Origin: Bacteroidota bacterium
GTDB taxonomy: Bacteria > Bacteroidota > Bacteroidia > AKYH767-A > OLB10
DNA: 64,000 nt
Assembly (NCBI GenBank): GCA_019136655.1
Contig: JAGVTU010000001.1
Span: 62,001-126,000 of the forward strand
Direction of reading: 5' to 3'
Shown here: positions 44,893 to 58,038 of the stretch, piece after piece
Numbering within the stretch: position 1 is the first letter of the stretch
Layout of the letters: each line of letters starts with the position of its first letter
Translations under genes and position numbers: made by a program
Notes under the pieces: generated by a model
What the model was told of the DNA's origin: nothing
What the model saw: the letters and a program-made list of their open reading frames with translations, nothing else
Database searches by the model: none

Positions 44893-46299
44893 GTGACGTT
44901 AATTAAATCAATTTCAGGGATCAGAGGAACGATAGGAGGTAAGGTTGGTGACTCGCTCACACCCTATGATGTAGTAAAATTTACAGCTGCCTATGCCACC
45001 TGGTTACAAGGGCAGCATCCTCCCAAAACTAAATGTAAAATAGTATTAGGCCGTGATGCACGTATCAGCGGCCCTATGATTCATCAGCTTGTTTGCGGAA
45101 CACTTACTGCAAAAGGGATGGATGTAATTGATGTAGGTCTGTCAACTACTCCAACTGTAGAAATGGCAGTGACATTTCATAATGCGCATGGTGGAATCAT
45201 CCTTACAGCAAGCCATAATCCCAAACAGTGGAATGCACTGAAATTACTCAATGACAAAGGCGAGTTTATTTCTGCTGCTGACGGAGAGCAATTGCTCAAG
45301 ATAGCAGAGAATGATAATATGGAGTTTGCGCAGATAAACCAAATTGGAACTGTAACTACAGATGATACTGCAATTCAAAAACATATTGAAGCTATTCTTG
45401 CTTTGCCTTTGGTAAACAAAAAAGCGATAGCTGAGAAAAAATTTAAAGTTGTTATTGATTGTGTCAACTCTTCAGGAGGAATTGCACTGCCTCCATTATT
45501 AAAAGCATTGGGAGTAGAGGAAGTAACAGAATTATATTGTACACCTGACGGAAATTTTCCGCATAACCCCGAACCACTTCCTGAACATCTTACCGACCTG
45601 AGTAAAACAGTTGTAAAGAAGAAGGCGCATCTTGGTATAAGTGTTGACCCTGATGTGGACAGGCTGGCACTGGTTTGCGAAGATGGCGAAATGTTTGGTG
45701 AGGAATATACACTCGTTGCAGTTGCAGATTATGTTCTGAAGAATATCAAAGGAAACACAGTGAGCAATCTTTCGTCAACACGTGCCTTACGTGATGTTAC
45801 AGAAAAGGCGGGAGGCACTTATTACGCTTCAGCAGTTGGCGAAGTTAATGTGGTGGAGATGATGAAAGCAAAACAGGCTGTTATCGGTGGTGAGGGCAAT
45901 GGTGGAGTTATCTATCCTGAATTGCACTATGGTCGTGATGCATTGGCAGGAATAGCGTTATTCCTGAGTCATCTGGCATTGTATGGAAAATCTGTTTCTA
46001 TGCTGAGAGCTTCTTATCCCGACTATTTTATTTCGAAGAATAAAATTGAACTCACACCTGAAATCAGTGTTGACGGAGTGCTCGAGTCAATGAAAGAAAA
46101 ATATAAGAAGCATAAAATTAATTCGATTGATGGAGTAAAAATCGAGTTTGAAAAAGAATGGGTTCATCTGCGTAAATCGAACACCGAACCTATTATCCGT
46201 ATTTATGCCGAAAGTGAGAGTCTGACAACAGCAGAAAATCTCGCTGAAAAAATTATTTTAGATATCAAAGAAGTTATTAATCATCCGGCACAGGCCTGA
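44893..46299 (+). CDS. glmM: Phosphoglucosamine mutase / phosphomannomutase family
   Basis: An alpha-D-phosphohexomutase of 468 residues. GTG at 44893 is the start (MTLIKSISGIRGTIGG). The phosphoserine is Ser107 in ILTASHNPKQWNALKLL. The Mg-binding loop is DPDVDRLAL. The sugar-binding loop is GGEGNGGVIYPELHYGRDAL. The phosphate-binding loop is RKSNTEPIIRIYAES. RGTIGG and SHNPKQWNALK favour GlmM-type activity (glucosamine-6-P to glucosamine-1-P for UDP-GlcNAc), but a mannose or glucose role is possible, since GDP-mannose synthesis is also encoded in this window. Confidence 0.88.
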   Translation: MTLIKSISGIRGTIGGKVGDSLTPYDVVKFTAAYATWLQGQHPPKTKCKIVLGRDARISGPMIHQLVCGTLTAKGMDVIDVGLSTTPTVEMAVTFHNAHGGIILTASHNPKQWNALKLLNDKGEFISAADGEQLLKIAENDNMEFAQINQIGTVTTDDTAIQKHIEAILALPLVNKKAIAEKKFKVVIDCVNSSGGIALPPLLKALGVEEVTELYCTPDGNFPHNPEPLPEHLTDLSKTVVKKKAHLGISVDPDVDRLALVCEDGEMFGEEYTLVAVADYVLKNIKGNTVSNLSSTRALRDVTEKAGGTYYASAVGEVNVVEMMKAKQAVIGGEGNGGVIYPELHYGRDALAGIALFLSHLALYGKSVSMLRASYPDYFISKNKIELTPEISVDGVLESMKEKYKKHKINSIDGVKIEFEKEWVHLRKSNTEPIIRIYAESESLTTAENLAEKIILDIKEVINHPAQA

Positions 46300-48045: not shown

Positions 48046-48234
48046 TTATTCAAACGTCCAGCCTTCTGGAAAAATGGTGCGTGTGAAGTTTTGAGTTTTT
48101 GCAAGTGAGCGGAGAATGTTTTCTTTACTTGTAATGCCTTGTTTTAATTTGATGGCTTTAATGTTTTTCAGAAGATTGATTTGTTCTTCTGTTTTAGGAA
48201 CAAAACTGTTCATGTAGAAAAAATTGTTTACCAT
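48046..48234 (-). CDS. Possible small hypothetical protein
   Basis: A 62-residue frame, or 55 residues from the ATG at 48213. The sequence KTEEQINLLKNIKAIKLKQGITSKENILRSLAKTQ is helix-prone with ordinary composition and reads like a real small protein. No family is recognised and no promoter box is clear. If it is not a gene, 48010-48331 is empty. Confidence 0.45.
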   Translation of the reverse strand: MVNNFFYMNSFVPKTEEQINLLKNIKAIKLKQGITSKENILRSLAKTQNFTRTIFPEGWTFE

Positions 48235-48331: not shown

Positions 48332-49564
48332 TTAAAATTTTACGTAACCTGCATCAGCCAGTTTATACATGTTTTCGCTGATGGAAATTTTTGAATCACG
48401 GAAATAAAAAACTCCGCCCCAACTGTAAACCACTTTGCTGAATAATGCTGACTTGTCACCTTGTGTAACGAGAACATTATAAACAGTGCGTTTGTCTTCA
48501 CTGATAGTCTCTCGGGTGATGGAAACATTTTCAGGAGGCTGAGAAGTTACAACAGATGGTATTGCTTTTTTATTCTCAACTGTTTTTTCAGTTTTAATAA
48601 TTACAGCAGGATCATTCTTTTTTACTTCAGTAACAGGAGGTGCATCTTCTCCACCTTTCTTACCAATCTTTCCTTTTATTGCATCCTGTCCTTGTTCAGG
48701 TTCAATGGGTACTTTTTCGTCTTGCCCCTTGTTGGCATTAAGAGTTGTTTCAGGTTCATCCATGCCGTTTGCACCTGTTGCTTTGTTGGACACATCTTCT
48801 CCACCTGCTGCCTGTGCCTGCTTTTGGGAAGTTTCTTTTTTATCTTCAGTTACAGGCGCTGCCGGTGCACTCTTATCAGTTGTTTTGTTTTCTGCAGGTT
48901 TATCAGCAACAGTTTTAGTATTTACATTCTCCTGAGGTTTGACAGTTTGTTTAGGTTTAGAATTTTCGACCGGTTGTTTGGCTTTGTTTTTTGCAAGTGT
49001 ACTGTCAACGGCAGGTTTAGGAGGATTTTTCTTAAATTCTTTTTCAGCACGTTTTAACTCTTCTTCTGCTTTTTGAATTGCCGACTGAATGGATTTGGTA
49101 TAATCCGTGTCGTAATCAAACTCGTCATACTTTTTGGAATAAGTAATCTTGGCAACAGGTTGATTAAAGACTACAATATTTACTCCTTCGTATTGTTTAA
49201 TCAGAACCACTGTGAACGGATACGATTCAAAACCCTGTTCCACTCTTTCTTCATCATCTACCCGTGTATTGATATTAATTTTCTTGTTGATATATCCGGG
49301 TTTGTTAAATGAAAGAATATAATCTGCTCCAATTTCAAGACTCAGTGTGTAGGAAGACTGACCCGGAAGCGTTTCAATATCCTGGCCATCGCGCTGCAAA
49401 ACCATATAGGCATCAGAAAGGCTCCCTCCTCCGTCAATTTTAAATTTTGCATTAATGGTAATTGTTTTTTTAGTCTGAGCCTCGCTGATAATCGAACTAA
49501 AAGTGAAAAACAGAAGAAGCAAAATCAGTATTTGCTGAAAACCAAACTTTATTTTGGTAAACAT
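48332..49564 (-). CDS. Exported hypothetical protein with low-complexity linker
   Basis: The ATG at 49564 gives 410 residues with a signal peptide (LILLLLFFTFSSIISEAQ). The longer frame to 49741 is rejected because it overlaps the divergent gene and adds improbable sequence before the signal. Residues about 30-130 form a carboxypeptidase-regulatory-like beta domain (TITINAKFKIDGGGSLSDAY, YILSFNKPGYINKKI). A charged coiled coil at about 160-180 and a long K/P/E/T/Q-rich disordered part (about 180-345) follow. The folded C-terminal end includes YNVLVTQGDKSALFSKVVYSW. No family is assigned; a periplasmic spacer or surface protein is plausible. Confidence 0.78.
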   Translation of the reverse strand: MFTKIKFGFQQILILLLLFFTFSSIISEAQTKKTITINAKFKIDGGGSLSDAYMVLQRDGQDIETLPGQSSYTLSLEIGADYILSFNKPGYINKKININTRVDDEERVEQGFESYPFTVVLIKQYEGVNIVVFNQPVAKITYSKKYDEFDYDTDYTKSIQSAIQKAEEELKRAEKEFKKNPPKPAVDSTLAKNKAKQPVENSKPKQTVKPQENVNTKTVADKPAENKTTDKSAPAAPVTEDKKETSQKQAQAAGGEDVSNKATGANGMDEPETTLNANKGQDEKVPIEPEQGQDAIKGKIGKKGGEDAPPVTEVKKNDPAVIIKTEKTVENKKAIPSVVTSQPPENVSITRETISEDKRTVYNVLVTQGDKSALFSKVVYSWGGVFYFRDSKISISENMYKLADAGYVKF

Positions 49565-49602
49565 TTGTAATTTTATTCCGTTAAAAACGCTCAAACCGAC
49601 TA

Positions 49603-49610
49603 CAAAATTA
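49603..49610 (-). promoter_or_regulatory. Candidate -7 box for the 48332-49564 gene
   Basis: Minus-strand TAATTTTG (plus-strand caaaatta) matches TAnnTTTG, 38 bases before the chosen ATG. This supports the shorter start: the box lies inside the rejected longer frame. Confidence 0.45.
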
Positions 49611-49649
49611 GTTATTTGACAAAAGCTATTAAGAAGGTATTTCGAAAGA

Positions 49650-50141
49650 ATGAACACTTTATACGAATTATTTAAAAAAGGGTTCTGCCTGAAAAGCAGG
49701 GCTATATTATTTTTCCTGTTTTTGTTTTCCACTGTATCCAATTTCTCATTGGCTCAGGAAAATATTACCATGCAGCAGACGTTGGATTATATGAATGAGA
49801 AGTTCGGTGGTAAGTATGTTATTTCAATTAACTATGGAGTTGTGATAGCCTCTTATTTTGACGGAAGTGAGAAATATCGCGAAGACCAGGCAAGTATAAA
49901 AGATTTGGATACTACCAGAGTTTATTACAATTCAAAAACGAAAATGCTTATAGTAGGATGTGCCAACCCGCAGAAAAAATGCGTTACACGTGAATTTTTA
50001 GGTAAACGGTTATTTTATGGCCGAATCAGTTTTCCCGTTTCTTATTCTCAAAAAACTACTGATGGTTTGGTCAAAGCATTTAAACACATGATTCGGTTAG
50101 TAAATGAAAAAAACTATCAAAGCAATGAACCTTTTGAGTAA
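49650..50141 (+). CDS. Exported hypothetical protein
   Basis: A 163-residue protein with a long signal peptide (AILFFLFLFSTVSNFSLAQ, cleavage after about residue 36). The mature part has NITMQQTLDYMNEKFGGKY and VYYNSKTKMLIVGCANPQKKC with two cysteines that could form a disulfide. The C-terminus KAFKHMIRLVNEK is helical. No family is recognised. Its end overlaps the next gene by 38 bases (17 if the later ATG is used). This is the first of three coupled exported proteins. Confidence 0.75.
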   Translation: MNTLYELFKKGFCLKSRAILFFLFLFSTVSNFSLAQENITMQQTLDYMNEKFGGKYVISINYGVVIASYFDGSEKYREDQASIKDLDTTRVYYNSKTKMLIVGCANPQKKCVTREFLGKRLFYGRISFPVSYSQKTTDGLVKAFKHMIRLVNEKNYQSNEPFE

Positions 50142-50670
50142 ACAAATAATAGGGCTGTTGGCAATAACAATGGCTACCTCTTTTGCAGTAAATGGTCAGA
50201 CTGAATCTGAGCAGCTCAAAGGTGTAACAGATTCACTATTTAATCAGGGGAGAATAAAATTCAACAACGGAAAATTTGAAGAAGCATTGAATGATTTCAG
50301 AGCCGTTGTGAAACTGGATGCATCTCATGTAAATGCATTACTGCAATGCGGATTTTGCAATGCTATTCTCAAGAACTATAATGAAGCAGTTACTGATTTC
50401 AGTGGAGTAATTACTTTGCAGCCTGAGCATGAATGGGCTTATGTTTCGCGAGGCAGTGCATATAATAAACTGGAACAGTACGAAAAAGCGATGGATGATT
50501 TTAATGTAGCTTTAAAACTGAAACCTGACGATGCAGAAGCTTATAACAACAGAGGATTTTCCAAGAAAATGTTAGGAGATAAAACCGGTGCATGCGAAGA
50601 CTGGAACAAATCGAAAAAGTTGGGAAATGAAGAAGCTAAAATTATTCTGAAAAATAATTATTGCAAATGA
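50104..50670 (+). CDS. Exported TPR-repeat protein
   Basis: A 188-residue protein with a signal peptide ending FAVNGQ. Three to four tetratricopeptide repeats follow: DSLFNQGRIKFNNGKFEEALNDF, NALLQCGFCNAILKNYNEAVTDF, EWAYVSRGSAYNKLEQYEKAMDDF and AEAYNNRGFSKKMLGDKTGACEDW. The last repeat ends in the CEDWNKSKKLGNEEA pattern common in Bacteroidota Sel1/TPR proteins. An alternative ATG at 50125 leaves a cleaner signal peptide. A periplasmic scaffold role is inferred. The stop shares ATGA with the next start. Confidence 0.82.
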   Translation: MKKTIKAMNLLSKQIIGLLAITMATSFAVNGQTESEQLKGVTDSLFNQGRIKFNNGKFEEALNDFRAVVKLDASHVNALLQCGFCNAILKNYNEAVTDFSGVITLQPEHEWAYVSRGSAYNKLEQYEKAMDDFNVALKLKPDDAEAYNNRGFSKKMLGDKTGACEDWNKSKKLGNEEAKIILKNNYCK

Positions 50671-51062
50671 AAAAGCTATTGACATCTTTCATCATTCTTG
50701 GAGCAGGAATGTTATTGCTCACAGGATTTAATCTGCCCCAGGATGCCAAAGATTATACTACCTGTCTCAGAAAAGTCAATAAAAAATTCGGTGCTGAAAC
50801 AAAATTATGTCCTGCATCATCCAAGCCTTATAAAGTTTGGTTTGTGAATGATTGTAATGATACCCTTGCTGTAAAACTTGCCGTTCAGGAAACTTCAAAA
50901 AGATGGAGAACTTTCGTTCGTTTGCAGCTTTTGCCGGGTGATACCATTTCGGGTTATGCATGCAACAGCACCGGAAAATACCTCTATTACGCCAAGCAGT
51001 ATGCCGATAATTCGGTAGAATTGCCTTCAGATGAGGAAATCAACAGCAGCAATATTCACTGA
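50667..51062 (+). CDS. Exported hypothetical protein, four cysteines
   Basis: A 131-residue protein whose ATG overlaps the preceding stop (ATGA). The signal peptide (1-23) is FIILGAGMLLLTGFNLP. The mature part has four Cys (TTCLRK, KLCPAS, NDCNDT, YACNST), suggesting two disulfides, and beta-rich sequence with KVWFVNDCNDTLAVKLAVQE. The motif of a small beta domain acting on a partner is only a guess; no family is recognised. It is last in the overlapping trio. Confidence 0.72.
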   Translation: MKKLLTSFIILGAGMLLLTGFNLPQDAKDYTTCLRKVNKKFGAETKLCPASSKPYKVWFVNDCNDTLAVKLAVQETSKRWRTFVRLQLLPGDTISGYACNSTGKYLYYAKQYADNSVELPSDEEINSSNIH

Positions 51063-51117: not shown

Positions 51118-52014
51118 TCAGTTACCCATAATTTTGGCATACTTGGTTGCGTTTGCCGGATCTATTTCATTCAGCAGATTGGTGATTCTTACTTTCTGAT
51201 CGGGATAGGCTCCTGTAAAAATATTTACAACCTCATCCGCTTTGGCATAAAACAAAGTTTGCAATAACAACGATCCCGGTTTTTCGCGATACACATCACT
51301 TAACAGCTCAAGACTTTCAGTAATGTTTGACAAGCCATCATCTTTTTTCTTCGACATCACATCCAAACCTTTGATATGGTACTGATAAAACATCTCATGA
51401 AATGGTTTGAATACAGGGTTGGTAAGATTTTCGGCTAACCAGTAACGGTTGCGTGTTCCTTCAAAAGCACGCCATCCTGCTTCACGTGCATTTTGCATAT
51501 TGTTTACCAGAGCTTGCGCTTTTGCAAAAAATGGTGCTCCGCCATTCAGGTGAAAGCTGTCATAGTCCATTCCCAAAATGATGTAGGCGTAAAATCCAAG
51601 CACTGCTGTTAGGTTTGGATTGCTGCTGTTTTCAGTAAACTCCAGTGGCTGATACTCGATATATTTAAACTGAAAATCATCATCATTAAAATTCAGAATT
51701 GGAGAGTAGTAAGAGGTATTAAATATCGGTCTGCGCGAAGTTACCTGAATACTTCCTTTAAATTCGTCATTGGAAACACGCTCGTTTACGGTAATGGTAA
51801 CAGAACATTCAATACGTTCCTGATTAAGAAATTTATCAGATGTCCATTTTGTGTTATTCATAAACTCAAATATGGCTTGCTGCAGTGTTTCAAATACTTT
51901 TTTGTCCACATTCTGTATTTGTGGTGCCATCACATTTATCTGACAGTTCAACTCCTGAGCATGGAGACGCACTGCCATGATGGTGAGAAATAAAAAGACA
52001 ATGGTTTTCTTCAT
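51118..52014 (-). CDS. DUF4835 protein (PorD-type, T9SS-associated)
   Basis: A 298-residue exported protein with signal peptide ending RLHAQ. The mature start is ELNCQINVMAPQIQNVDKKVFETLQQAI, followed by NERVSNDEFKGSIQVTSRRPIFNTSY and GFYAYIILGMDYDSF, characteristic of DUF4835. Some databases name this family PorD of the type IX secretion system. It is last in the bamD-rpoZ-coaBC run and overlaps the coaBC stop by 4 bases. The conserved position next to bamD supports an outer-membrane role. Confidence 0.85.
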   Translation of the reverse strand: MKKTIVFLFLTIMAVRLHAQELNCQINVMAPQIQNVDKKVFETLQQAIFEFMNNTKWTSDKFLNQERIECSVTITVNERVSNDEFKGSIQVTSRRPIFNTSYYSPILNFNDDDFQFKYIEYQPLEFTENSSNPNLTAVLGFYAYIILGMDYDSFHLNGGAPFFAKAQALVNNMQNAREAGWRAFEGTRNRYWLAENLTNPVFKPFHEMFYQYHIKGLDVMSKKKDDGLSNITESLELLSDVYREKPGSLLLQTLFYAKADEVVNIFTGAYPDQKVRITNLLNEIDPANATKYAKIMGN

Positions 52015-54528: not shown

Positions 54529-57500
54529 ATGATCAAGAAAATTTTACCTCTAATCACCTGTGGTTTTTTGAGTTTAACAGCATTAGCTCAGTCAGACTAC
54601 AGACTCATGTTGTCAGGAAAACCGGAGTTTCCTGCTGAAAACACAACAGAATTTATTCAGTCGGATATTCCGTCTCAGGAGGAAATATGTCAGGGATATT
54701 ATTACCGTTATATTCAGTTTTATTCCATTCCAACTGAGCAACAAAAGGAGTTACTGGAACAAACGGGTATTAAACTGCTCGACTATATACCGAGAAACAC
54801 TTTTTGGAGTGCTATCCCTGTAAATTACAACAAAACACAACTGCAGCAATTTGGAATTCGCTCGGTAACAAGCCGCAATTCAGAGCAAAAACTGGCAGTA
54901 AACATGCTTGGCGAATATCCGACTTATGCAATACCTACGCCCGGAAAGTTGACTGTAAGAGTTCAGTATCAGAAAAACTTATCGGCTGCTGATGTGATGG
55001 CTTGGGCTTCAAGTTTTGGTGAAATTTTGCAGGTAACTGAACTGAACCAAATTATTGAAATAAATATTCAGCAAAGTGATATAAAGAAATTAACGCAGCA
55101 GCCATGGGTGTTTTTTGTATCGCTAACAGCTCCTCCATCAGTTAAAGATGATACCATGGGTCGCAGCCTACATCGCAGCAATGGTATAAATAACGACCTG
55201 ATTATGGGAAGAAAATACAATGGTAACGGAGTGGCTGCAGCACTTGCTGATGATGGTTTTGTAGGACCACACATTGACTTTACAGGCAGAATAACCAATT
55301 ATTCAAATTCTGTTGGTCCTGACCATGGTGATATGACAAGTGGAATTCTTGCAGGTGCAGCCAATCTGAATCCTGTTTACAGAGGTATGGCAGATGGTGT
55401 TCAGCTTTATGTTTTTGACATCTCCGGATACACCCACATTTTGAATGCGGTTGCAAATTATGATACGATTAAAACAGTAGTTACTTCTACCAGCTATTCG
55501 CAGGGATGTAATGAATATACAACTGATACACAGTTTGGCGATCAGACCATTCATGACAACGGACAACTGGAATTTGTTTTTTCTGCAGGAAATAACAATG
55601 GAGCCAACTGTGGATATGGTGCAGGAGGCAGTTGGGGAAATATCACAGGCGGTTACAAACAAGGCAAGAATGTGATTGCAGTTGCCAATCTCGATGCATT
55701 AGAGGTAATAGATCCAAGCAGCAGTATAGGCCCCGCATCAGACGGACGTGTTAAACCTGATATCGCTGCAAATGGACGTGATCAGATGTCAACCGATGAA
55801 GGAAATACCTATCAGGTAGGTGGCGGAACTTCTGCTGCATGCCCCGGAATTGCAGGTATTACCACTCAGTTGATTCAGGCTTATAAAGAGTTATATACAG
55901 ATACCATTGCTCCAACTGCTTTGATAAAAGCATGTTTACTCAACAGTGCAGAAGATATTGGTAATCCCGGCCCTGATTTTAAATACGGATGGGGTAGAGT
56001 AAATGCATTGCGTGCAGTAAAAACTCTGGAAGATAATCACTTTATACATGGCTCTGTTTCACAGGGCGACAGTTTGACTTTTAGTGTGAATGTTCCAGTT
56101 GATGTAAAAGATTTCAGAGTGATGGTTTATTGGCATGATCAGGGTGGATCACCTGCTGCTTCTACTTATCTGGTGAATGATATTGATATGACAGTAACAG
56201 ATCCCTCAGCTACTGTATGGACTCCATGGGTATTGGATGCCACTCCTAATACTACAGCATTAAATACACCTGCAGTGAGAGGTATAGATCATCTCAACAA
56301 TATGGAACAGGTAACACTTGCTAACCCAAGTGCAGGCAGCTATACAATTTCTCTAAAAGGATTTGCTATACCACAGGGACCTCAGGAATTTTATATTGTG
56401 TATGAATACAGAATGGATGATATTACTGTAACTTACCCATTAGGAAGAGAAGGATTTGTACCCGGTGAAACAGAAGTAATACGCTGGGATGCACTTAAAG
56501 GATTAGGTGGATTTACACTGGAGTATTCTACTGACAATGGTGCTACATGGAACAACATTGGAAATGTGAGTCAGAATACTTTACAATATCAGTGGACTGT
56601 ACCAAGTACCATAACCAGTGAAGCCCGTGTAAGAGTGACACGCGGCACTGTAAGCGGAATGAATACAGAACCATTTTCAATTATTGGAGTACCACAGAAT
56701 CTGCATGTTGTTTATGGATGTATTGATTCTGTTAAAGTAGCCTGGAATGCAGTTACCGGAGCAGCATGGTATGAAGTAAGTTTACTCGGCAGTATGTATA
56801 TGGACTCTGTAGGAACCAGCAATACCACTGATTATATTTTCACCAATCTTGTTGTAGGGAATTCATATTGGTTTAGCGTTAGAGCAGTTTTTCCTGACGG
56901 AAATAAAGGAAGAAGAGCTATTGCTGTGAACAAAGTTCCCGGCATTTTAAATTGTCCGAATATCCCTCCATCAGTTGCATTTTCATCTAATTTCAGTTCA
57001 GGTTGTGTAGGCAAAACGTTTCAGTTTACAGATATGAGTTCCAGTGCACCCAGTTCCTGGAACTGGAGTTTCAATCCGAACACTGTAACATTTGTAAACG
57101 GAACTTCTGCATCATCACAAAATCCGCAAGTGCAGTTTAATGCTACCGGTATGTATGATGTGACACTCATTGCTGCTAATGGTATTGGTGCAGACACTAC
57201 TACCATTGCTTCCATGATTAATATTATTCCTGCACAACAGCCACCGGTTACTGAAGATTTTCAGGCAGCAGGTTTCCCTCCGCAATACTGGTCAATTGAT
57301 TCTTCCAACACCAGTTATACCTGGACTAAAAGTGGAAATATTACCGGTATTTATGGCACCAGTACAAACGCAGCTTTTATGAATAACTATAGTTATAATG
57401 GTAATGGCGCAGAGGATGGATTGATTACATACAGTGTATCACTAAGCAATGCAGCATCAGCAACTTTAACTTTTGATGTGGCTTATGCACCATATTCAAT

Positions 57501-58038
57501 TCCCGGTTACAGTGATACCCTTAGGGTAGATATTTCGACTGACTGTGGAAATACTTTTCAAACGACAGGATATTTTAAGGGCGGATTGGGTCTTTCCACA
57601 ACAGGAGGAACCATGTCCTCTTCATTCTATCCTTCATCTGCAACGGACTGGCGCAGAGATACTATTTTGCTGAATAATTATTTGGGTGATGATGTTGTAA
57701 TAAAATTTGTCAATATCAACGGATTTGGCAACAGGTTGTATATTGATAATGTGAACATTGATATTACAACAGGAGTAAATAACCTGCAGACAGAATCAGA
57801 CAATATAAGTATCATACCTAATCCATCCAATGGTGTTTTCAGAATTCAAACTCCGCAAGGACATGGTTCATATCAGGTTGAGGTATATGATTTGAGTGGC
57901 AAGTTGGTTATTAAAGATATTATTGCTGCAAATCAGAATGAAAAGTTGATTGATTTGCGCAATTTCACTGATGGTGTTTATACACTCAAGATGACAAGCG
58001 TTGCACAAACTAAAATGTTTCGTTTGATTAAGAATTAA
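54529..58038 (+). CDS. Secreted subtilisin-like (S8) protease with T9SS type A sorting domain
   Basis: A 1169-residue extracellular protease. The signal peptide ends ALAQ. The prodomain reaches about residue 200. The S8 domain has the catalytic Asp at 241 (LADDGF), His266 in DHGDMTSGI (canonical HGTH is altered to HGDM, with the His kept) and Ser435 in GGTSAACPG. A P/Ig-like domain (about 500-640), another Ig-like domain with YSTDNGATW, a fibronectin-III-like domain (about 725-820) and a PKD-like domain with SSWNWSF follow. A MAM/cleaved-adhesin-like domain (about 910-1085) precedes the T9SS type A end (IIPNPSNGVF, DLSGKLV, GVYTLKM). A digestive or processing role is inferred. It is monocistronic with a strong terminator. 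Confidence 0.9.
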   Translation: MIKKILPLITCGFLSLTALAQSDYRLMLSGKPEFPAENTTEFIQSDIPSQEEICQGYYYRYIQFYSIPTEQQKELLEQTGIKLLDYIPRNTFWSAIPVNYNKTQLQQFGIRSVTSRNSEQKLAVNMLGEYPTYAIPTPGKLTVRVQYQKNLSAADVMAWASSFGEILQVTELNQIIEINIQQSDIKKLTQQPWVFFVSLTAPPSVKDDTMGRSLHRSNGINNDLIMGRKYNGNGVAAALADDGFVGPHIDFTGRITNYSNSVGPDHGDMTSGILAGAANLNPVYRGMADGVQLYVFDISGYTHILNAVANYDTIKTVVTSTSYSQGCNEYTTDTQFGDQTIHDNGQLEFVFSAGNNNGANCGYGAGGSWGNITGGYKQGKNVIAVANLDALEVIDPSSSIGPASDGRVKPDIAANGRDQMSTDEGNTYQVGGGTSAACPGIAGITTQLIQAYKELYTDTIAPTALIKACLLNSAEDIGNPGPDFKYGWGRVNALRAVKTLEDNHFIHGSVSQGDSLTFSVNVPVDVKDFRVMVYWHDQGGSPAASTYLVNDIDMTVTDPSATVWTPWVLDATPNTTALNTPAVRGIDHLNNMEQVTLANPSAGSYTISLKGFAIPQGPQEFYIVYEYRMDDITVTYPLGREGFVPGETEVIRWDALKGLGGFTLEYSTDNGATWNNIGNVSQNTLQYQWTVPSTITSEARVRVTRGTVSGMNTEPFSIIGVPQNLHVVYGCIDSVKVAWNAVTGAAWYEVSLLGSMYMDSVGTSNTTDYIFTNLVVGNSYWFSVRAVFPDGNKGRRAIAVNKVPGILNCPNIPPSVAFSSNFSSGCVGKTFQFTDMSSSAPSSWNWSFNPNTVTFVNGTSASSQNPQVQFNATGMYDVTLIAANGIGADTTTIASMINIIPAQQPPVTEDFQAAGFPPQYWSIDSSNTSYTWTKSGNITGIYGTSTNAAFMNNYSYNGNGAEDGLITYSVSLSNAASATLTFDVAYAPYSIPGYSDTLRVDISTDCGNTFQTTGYFKGGLGLSTTGGTMSSSFYPSSATDWRRDTILLNNYLGDDVVIKFVNINGFGNRLYIDNVNIDITTGVNNLQTESDNISIIPNPSNGVFRIQTPQGHGSYQVEVYDLSGKLVIKDIIAANQNEKLIDLRNFTDGVYTLKMTSVAQTKMFRLIKN

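Follow-up and report, generated by a model that had tools for sequence, protein, structure and literature searches.

A conserved four-gene cassette of Bacteroidia encoding a two-headed protein, a TPR protein and two small proteins, all with export-like N-termini

Background

The closest described counterparts of the gene set reported here are the proteins PorE and CHU_0125. PorE, a lipoprotein of the type IX secretion system (T9SS), carries tetratricopeptide repeats (TPR), WD40 repeats (a beta-propeller), a carboxypeptidase-regulatory-like domain (CRD) and an OmpA domain in one chain, and has been suggested to bridge the outer membrane and peptidoglycan (PMC7192894). For the second protein, deletion of chu_0125 is reported to impair outer-membrane integrity in Cytophaga hutchinsonii (PMC5891637). 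Here we describe a cassette of four genes, designated A, B, T and C, at positions 48,332 to 51,062 of a 64,000-nucleotide stretch (the window) of a Bacteroidota bacterium genome (GCA_019136655.1, contig JAGVTU010000001.1, positions 62,001 to 126,000, forward strand).

The cassette resembles PorE in the kinds of modules that it contains (TPR and probably CRD) and in its presumed envelope location. Unlike PorE, it consists of four separate proteins with almost no lipobox, and no beta-propeller or OmpA domain was found in them. The T protein of the window scores 13.1 of 600 bits against the PorE model and 21.4 of 620 bits against the CHU_0125 model, and the T protein of a locus of family f31 (L146) matches PorE with E 1.7e-6 over its TPR part. 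The likeness to the CHU_0125 family lies in the CRD-OmpA part of one fusion protein described below, and the difference in the cassette, in which no OmpA domain was found. The cassette does not belong to the PorE/CHU_0125 family: it lacks the single-chain architecture and a score at the cut-off, and by a crude rule lipobox-like motifs are almost absent.

A few word combinations searched in open-licence papers did not retrieve a description of such a gene set. Of the 33 named records with cassette matches, 32 are titled as metagenome-assembled, and in a phylum sample of 296 mostly high-quality Bacteroidota genomes a solid C match was obtained in the genome of the window only (one more at E 0.0055), which together may explain why no study of the set was found.

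Conservation of the cassette

The cassette is a conserved system and more than a chance arrangement, as the same gene order recurs across many genera. Its features in the window are as follows (coordinates, strand, description and basis; aa, amino acids).

48332-49564, minus strand: gene A, exported two-headed protein of 410 aa from ATG (open reading frame analysis, family alignment A3)
49041-49474, minus strand: N-terminal head of A (aa 31-174), probably carboxypeptidase-regulatory-like (constant head length, PF13620 matches among heads)
48533-49039, minus strand: linker of A, 169 aa here, rich in K, P, E and T, variable in length (lengths across members)
48335-48532, minus strand: C-terminal 'WGG' head of A, 66 aa (19-member alignment)
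49565-49649, no strand: divergent intergenic region between A and B, 85 bases, presumably with both promoters (sequence)
49650-50141, plus strand: gene B, exported protein of 163 aa, predicted PH-like fold, invariant Cys104/Cys111 (open reading frame, alignment, structure prediction)
50104-50670, plus strand: gene T, exported TPR protein of 188 aa with a conserved C-terminal GACxDWxxSxxxGNxEA...NxCK (open reading frame, Pfam, alignment)
50667-51062, plus strand: gene C, exported beta-sandwich protein of 131 aa, two inferred disulfides (open reading frame, alignment, structure prediction)

The four reading frames, with A (410 aa) facing B, T and C (163, 188 and 131 aa) and with overlaps of 38 bases between B and T (50104-50141) and 4 bases between T and C (50667-50670), are as described in the original prediction, which had been made from this sequence alone.

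Profile mapping found the whole arrangement (A on the minus strand; B, T and C on the plus strand) intact in 31 of 39 loci from 26 genera, the window excluded, and by a hand count the order is kept in 22 of these genera. The remaining loci comprise three cut by contig ends (L063, L114, L117), one in which T was missed in frame mapping and found by a strict T search (L126), one without B (L064), two split sets (L050 of genome G026, L118 of G082) and one duplicated and rearranged set (L128 of G162). The first maps, of 19 loci, had all four genes with A facing B-T-C in 15; a twentieth map covered the paralogue of A in the window's own genome. Of 61 kin genomes, the window's own included, 52 have A-like proteins, 29 have C and 21 have B. 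To gauge overall synteny, the surroundings were assessed in 24 genera, with a single locus per genus and a minimum gene length of 100 aa: the commonest family within four genes on either side occurs in 5 of the 24. An order and orientation fixed across genera amid mostly shuffled surroundings is the pattern of a real, selected system.

A class-wide survey of 395 Bacteroidia genomes, drawn evenly and uncorrected for kinship, gave C matches in 62, B matches in 53 and both in 50 genomes (Fisher p about 5e-48, a value that ignores kinship). In 47 of these 50 genomes (all but G026, G082 and G162) B and C share a strand, with C following B after a gap of 506-746 bases, enough for a single gene. The three genomes with B and without C have weak B matches (E 2e-4 to 8e-4). 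Eight of the 12 with C and no B match carry A divergent on the same contig, B there being either absent or diverged beyond detection; the remaining four have a contig end inside C or T or shortly after it. A strict T (E up to 1e-40) was present in 56 of 325 genomes, one copy each. It stands directly upstream of C on the same strand in 49 of the 51 genomes having both (exceptions G082 and G162), at a distance of at most 134 bases in 48 genomes and of 213 bases in G190, where the contig end truncates T. All 49 typed pairs of A and B on one contig, among the A matches listed, are divergent, with 28-469 bases between the edges of the hidden Markov model hits. The 58 A rows typed leave aside stand-alone paralogues and the second tandem A copies of G046, G092, G160 and G219, which are also divergent from B.

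The exact overlaps, which the original prediction took as a sign of coupling, did not hold up as evidence. Spacing varies widely among relatives, from -113 to +99 between B and T (35 mapped loci) and from -79 to +54 between T and C (36 mapped loci), with starts set mechanically; the 38-base overlap is one value in this range and is not conserved. An alternative T start in the window (ATG 50125) would reduce it to 17 bases. In the A/B intergenic region, the 21 bases proximal to A are identical in two congeners. A scan of this region for promoters and terminators found nothing specific, with a consensus that does not fit this phylum. A 62-codon reading frame lies at 48046-48234 (minus strand), in the gap beside the cassette.

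Comparison with G003 gave ratios of nonsynonymous to synonymous substitution (dN/dS) of 0.06-0.13 for the four cassette genes and 0.035-0.042 for two flanking genes, synonymous sites being near saturation. Against G002 the value for T was 0.23, and those for A, B and C were unusable (dS infinite). These ratios suggest purifying selection on the cassette genes.

Conserved order and co-occurrence strongly support the earlier idea that the B, T and C products act together, and A belongs to the set as well. The outcome named in advance as speaking against that idea, a neighbourhood absent from all relatives with products in different compartments, was not what we found: the neighbourhood is kept in many relatives and all four products look exported. 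The first interpretation is thus partly supported, with less weight on the overlaps and more on A and on the order of four genes.

Partial, rearranged and fused versions

In three f31 loci (L146-L148) T (208-223 bits) is divergent beside A, with B and C not labelled, and G142, judged by coordinates, has a fourth pair of this type. The A proteins of L146-L148 keep the N-terminal head; the WGG head was not detected in them. G255 (f25) has a weaker T (148.6 bits) and no C match. An A-T-C arrangement without room for B occurs in L064, L099 and L100 (L102 is apparently the same record as L064). From the f31 pairs and the B-less loci, A-T is the steadiest pair, and B and C look optional. In the duplicated cassette of G162 (L128:7035-11736) an A-T-C set adjoins an A-B-T set, and the T in the former is much diverged (75.7 bits).

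One genome, G069, encodes a 380-aa fusion protein (L129:5503-6642). It contains a C-like domain (E 1.1e-11), an OmpA domain (E 1.2e-18) and, with a match below cut-off, a CRD (E 4.5e-5); the portion comprising CRD and OmpA comes closest to the CHU_0125 family, at 108 bits, far under the cut-off of 620. For location and role, this one fusion is the main clue. The protein encoded two genes away (L129:875-3958, minus strand) is 1028 aa long and carries a T9SS type B sorting domain (E 4.7e-15).

The four proteins

Hydrophobic, signal-like N-termini were found in nearly all mapped homologues (A 39/39, B 38/38, T 36/37, C 36/37), in line with the predicted common export. Lipobox-like motifs are almost absent (A 0/39, B 0/38, T 1/37, C 1/37). 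Both calls come from a crude rule applied to mechanical starts, as distinct from a signal-peptide predictor.

Pfam and NCBIfam gave no match above cut-off for A, B or C, and listed no OmpA domain or other anchor and no beta-propeller for any of the four proteins. No T9SS sorting domain was found by NCBIfam in A, B or C, nor in T among the matches listed, and T9SS component models gave nothing above cut-off for A, B and C; T matches PorE below cut-off only, among the matches listed. Querying Protein Data Bank (PDB) sequences with profiles of B, C, A and the A head revealed no relation: one of these searches had a best E of 0.073, to a designed Ig protein, and another matched nothing. The statement that the exported proteins lack recognisable families therefore stands for A, B and C at curated cut-offs, with the nuance that the N-terminal head of A is probably a divergent CRD.

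Three other candidate functions were set aside. Anti-phage defence was dismissed on the lack of any PADLOC match for A, B, T and C at E up to 0.01, phage origin on a PHROG match in T only, to a family of unknown function, and an enzymatic role on the B, T and C alignments, in which no invariant catalytic-looking residue set was recognised by eye.

The A proteins of all 19 members of alignment A3 agree closely in head length, with 142-148 aa for the N-terminal head and 51-66 aa for the C-terminal head, in which W382 and F388 are invariant; their linkers measure 101-356 aa. Among rows with both heads in a wider set the linker spans 95-1437 aa, and one member has TPRs inside it. Composition and length variation suggest that the linker is disordered. 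PF13620 matched 14 of 45 aligned A-type heads at E up to 0.05 (best 3.2e-9), the window head being without a match. These 45 comprise 31 of 49 cassette heads, 13 of 16 further heads and the window head; 13 of them come from other A-like proteins or f31 loci. When nine cassette heads (one from f31) were rechecked, three matched PF13620 below cut-off (E 4.7e-5, 0.0041 and 0.046), and again the window head did not; none of the 19 full-length cassette A proteins of alignment A3 gave a PF13620 match. Taken together, the sequences suggest that the N-terminal head is probably a divergent CRD.

A-like proteins are common, occurring in 193 of the 395 Bacteroidia genomes at E up to 1e-12. The genome of the window itself encodes a 740-aa paralogue (L065:4368-6590), one of the unnamed dumbbell proteins of Bacteroidia, which shares with A the N-terminal head, a charged linker and the WGG head. 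Unlike cassette A, it is stand-alone, with no T, B or C labelled within its 11-kb stretch, and it scores 73.5 bits against the profile of cassette N-terminal heads. In f25, A-like two-headed proteins adjoin an inositol-monophosphatase-like gene (named by eye) in the three loci read. The best match of a 3124-aa protein (L139:2021-11392, minus strand) to the A profile, 177 bits, covers profile positions 166-360, mostly the linker part.

T is a TPR protein, as predicted: PF00515 reaches 71.8 bits (cut-off 27.8) over three stretches. Its best NCBIfam match is the SycD/LcrH chaperone family, below cut-off. Scores in the genome of the window, 267 bits for the cassette T against 60.6 for the runner-up, mark the cassette T as a subfamily of its own.

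The AlphaFold2 model of B (pLDDT 88.6, pTM 0.76) has eight strands and a terminal helix. Compared with PH domains it gave VIA Z 7.9 and a root-mean-square deviation (rmsd) of 3.5 with 102 aligned, the best Foldseek E being only 0.073. Many Ig-like domains resemble the sandwich predicted for C (pLDDT 86.9, pTM 0.73), the best of them at Z 6.1 and rmsd 4.8 with 81 aligned; the top Foldseek match of C is a DUF1425 protein (E 0.01). Foldseek returned nothing at E < 0.001 for either model. The likeness of B to the pleckstrin-homology-like fold and of C to an Ig/TTR-like sandwich is one of predicted architecture only; no sequence relation was found in PDB, nor, for the window proteins, a Pfam match above cut-off.

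Cysteines are conserved in all three small proteins. Cys104 and Cys111 of B are invariant in 18 of 18 rows and Cys164 and Cys187 of T in 19 of 19. In C, Cys33 and Cys63 come and go together: 18 of 23 rows have both, five have neither and none has one alone; the five include two close pairs, so perhaps three independent losses occurred. Such patterns are as expected outside the cytoplasm and support an oxidising compartment.

Genomic surroundings

The next gene in the window (51118-52014, minus strand), convergent with C, encodes PorD, a T9SS component (NF052317, 380.5 bits, cut-off 170); beyond it come genes that by eye resemble those for CoaBC, RpoZ and BamD. Nine window neighbours were searched directly in all 72 mapped loci. 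porD is near the cassette in four of them (L046, L047, L080, L116), i.e. in three genomes and 2 of 26 genera; it adjoins C in the window and in G003 and is about 6 kb away in G002. A porD-coaBC-rpoZ-bamD-like run lies about 3 kb from the cassette in G064 (L116), a genome of another family. A nifS-like gene also lies close to the cassette in G050 and in G094, in the latter together with a glmM-like gene. This residual synteny tells against fully scrambled surroundings, and a loose old neighbourhood around the cassette is possible. porD was rejected as a fifth member: with four of 72 loci, it is not in the conserved set within the flanks covered.

A phosphoglucomutase/phosphoglucosamine-mutase-like gene (by eye) lies directly downstream of T in f31 (L146:8393-9781, plus strand). 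Similar genes are near the cassette in the window (44893-46299) and in G094, possibly reflecting an old shared location beside the cassette or the A-T pair. The window also encodes a 1169-aa subtilisin-like protein (54529-58038, plus strand) with a C-terminus that, by eye, resembles a T9SS sorting tail.

Proposed role and alternatives

We tentatively favour, among the explanations considered, a non-enzymatic periplasmic scaffold that would work like PorE or CHU_0125 with its modules split over separate proteins. The argument for it draws on the conserved order, the integrity of the quartet against varied flanks, the G069 fusion, the A-T pair in f31, the cysteines and the lack of a catalytic residue set. 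A, B, T and C would then form one functional unit in the periplasm, near the outer membrane and peptidoglycan, and we infer that they assemble physically. A would be a dumbbell whose CRD-type N-terminal head partners T as the core pair, and its length-variable linker would carry the WGG head towards two disulfide-stabilised adaptors, the PH-like B and the Ig/TTR-like sandwich C. The assignment of heads to partners, the location by peptidoglycan and outer membrane and the scaffold role itself are parts of what we infer. A somewhat less probable variant is an undescribed envelope machine or structure of mostly uncultured Bacteroidia, in which a TPR protein specific to it and two new adaptor families hold a dumbbell rod of variable length, with linker length setting a periplasmic or surface distance.

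Several observations weigh against the PorE-like scaffold. B is missing in L064, L099 and L100, and family f31 lacks it along with C, so neither is required throughout; G026, G082 and G162 have a split or rearranged set. The C-CRD-OmpA fusion is a single case in 395 genomes, and the four cassette proteins are without an OmpA domain or other detected anchor. The fold matches of the B and C models are middling and might reflect a mere shared common arrangement. The CRD call for cassette heads leans on below-cut-off matches and on homology to paralogues, and the TPR similarity of T to PorE and CHU_0125 may be generic.

Instead of a scaffold, the genes might encode a periplasmic chaperone or assembly set, in which T binds extended or unfolded clients and passes them on, and A, B and C belong as co-factors or clients to an export or outer-membrane assembly route, perhaps type IX secretion. 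TPR groove proteins often bind extended peptides, the SycD/LcrH family is the best NCBIfam match of T (below cut-off), and one A protein has TPRs in its linker. The porD-coaBC-rpoZ-bamD-like run beside the cassette in the window and G003, its presence about 3 kb away in G064 and porD about 6 kb away in G002 would fit as well. However, export-machine genes do not recur widely: porD was found in 4 of 72 mapped loci, and the commonest flanking family reaches 5 of 24 genera. We regard this explanation as unlikely. Slightly less likely still is that A builds an adhesin, filament or matrix on the cell surface or outside the cell, and that T, B and C assemble it. The extreme variation of linker length (95-1437 aa) in a head-linker-head design, which resembles surface spacers, and the exported look of all four proteins speak for it. 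Against it, no T9SS sorting domain was found in A, B or C, nor in T among the matches listed, and lipobox-like motifs are almost absent, so that a known surface route is not evident. For the same reason the surface, left in the original prediction as an alternative to the periplasm, gained no support.

The genes might also be a conserved regulon whose products do not assemble, their linkage serving only co-expression from a single divergent promoter region. The divergent layout and short spacing (28-469 bases) fit shared regulation, but an order kept in 22 of 26 genera amid mostly scrambled flanks, the retained A-T pair and the one C-CRD fusion point to a tighter link, and we consider this possibility a little less likely than the preceding two. 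The least probable alternative is a thiol- or metal-handling envelope system in which C acts through a CxxC motif. Such a motif ends at the Cys48 position in 20 of 23 C sequences (alignment A4, by-eye count); yet it is absent from the window C and its two congeners (A4) and from four f9 rows (A5), and C has no oxidoreductase match above cut-off, the two members that match Thioredoxin doing so with a best E of 0.069.

Significance

Three of the four genes of this conserved cassette are named by no curated model above cut-off. The A-T pair with optional B and C offers a natural series of partial systems for dissection. If the cassette is a split scaffold, it would provide a test of how an envelope bridge of the PorE/CHU_0125 kind is constructed and of spacing by linker length.

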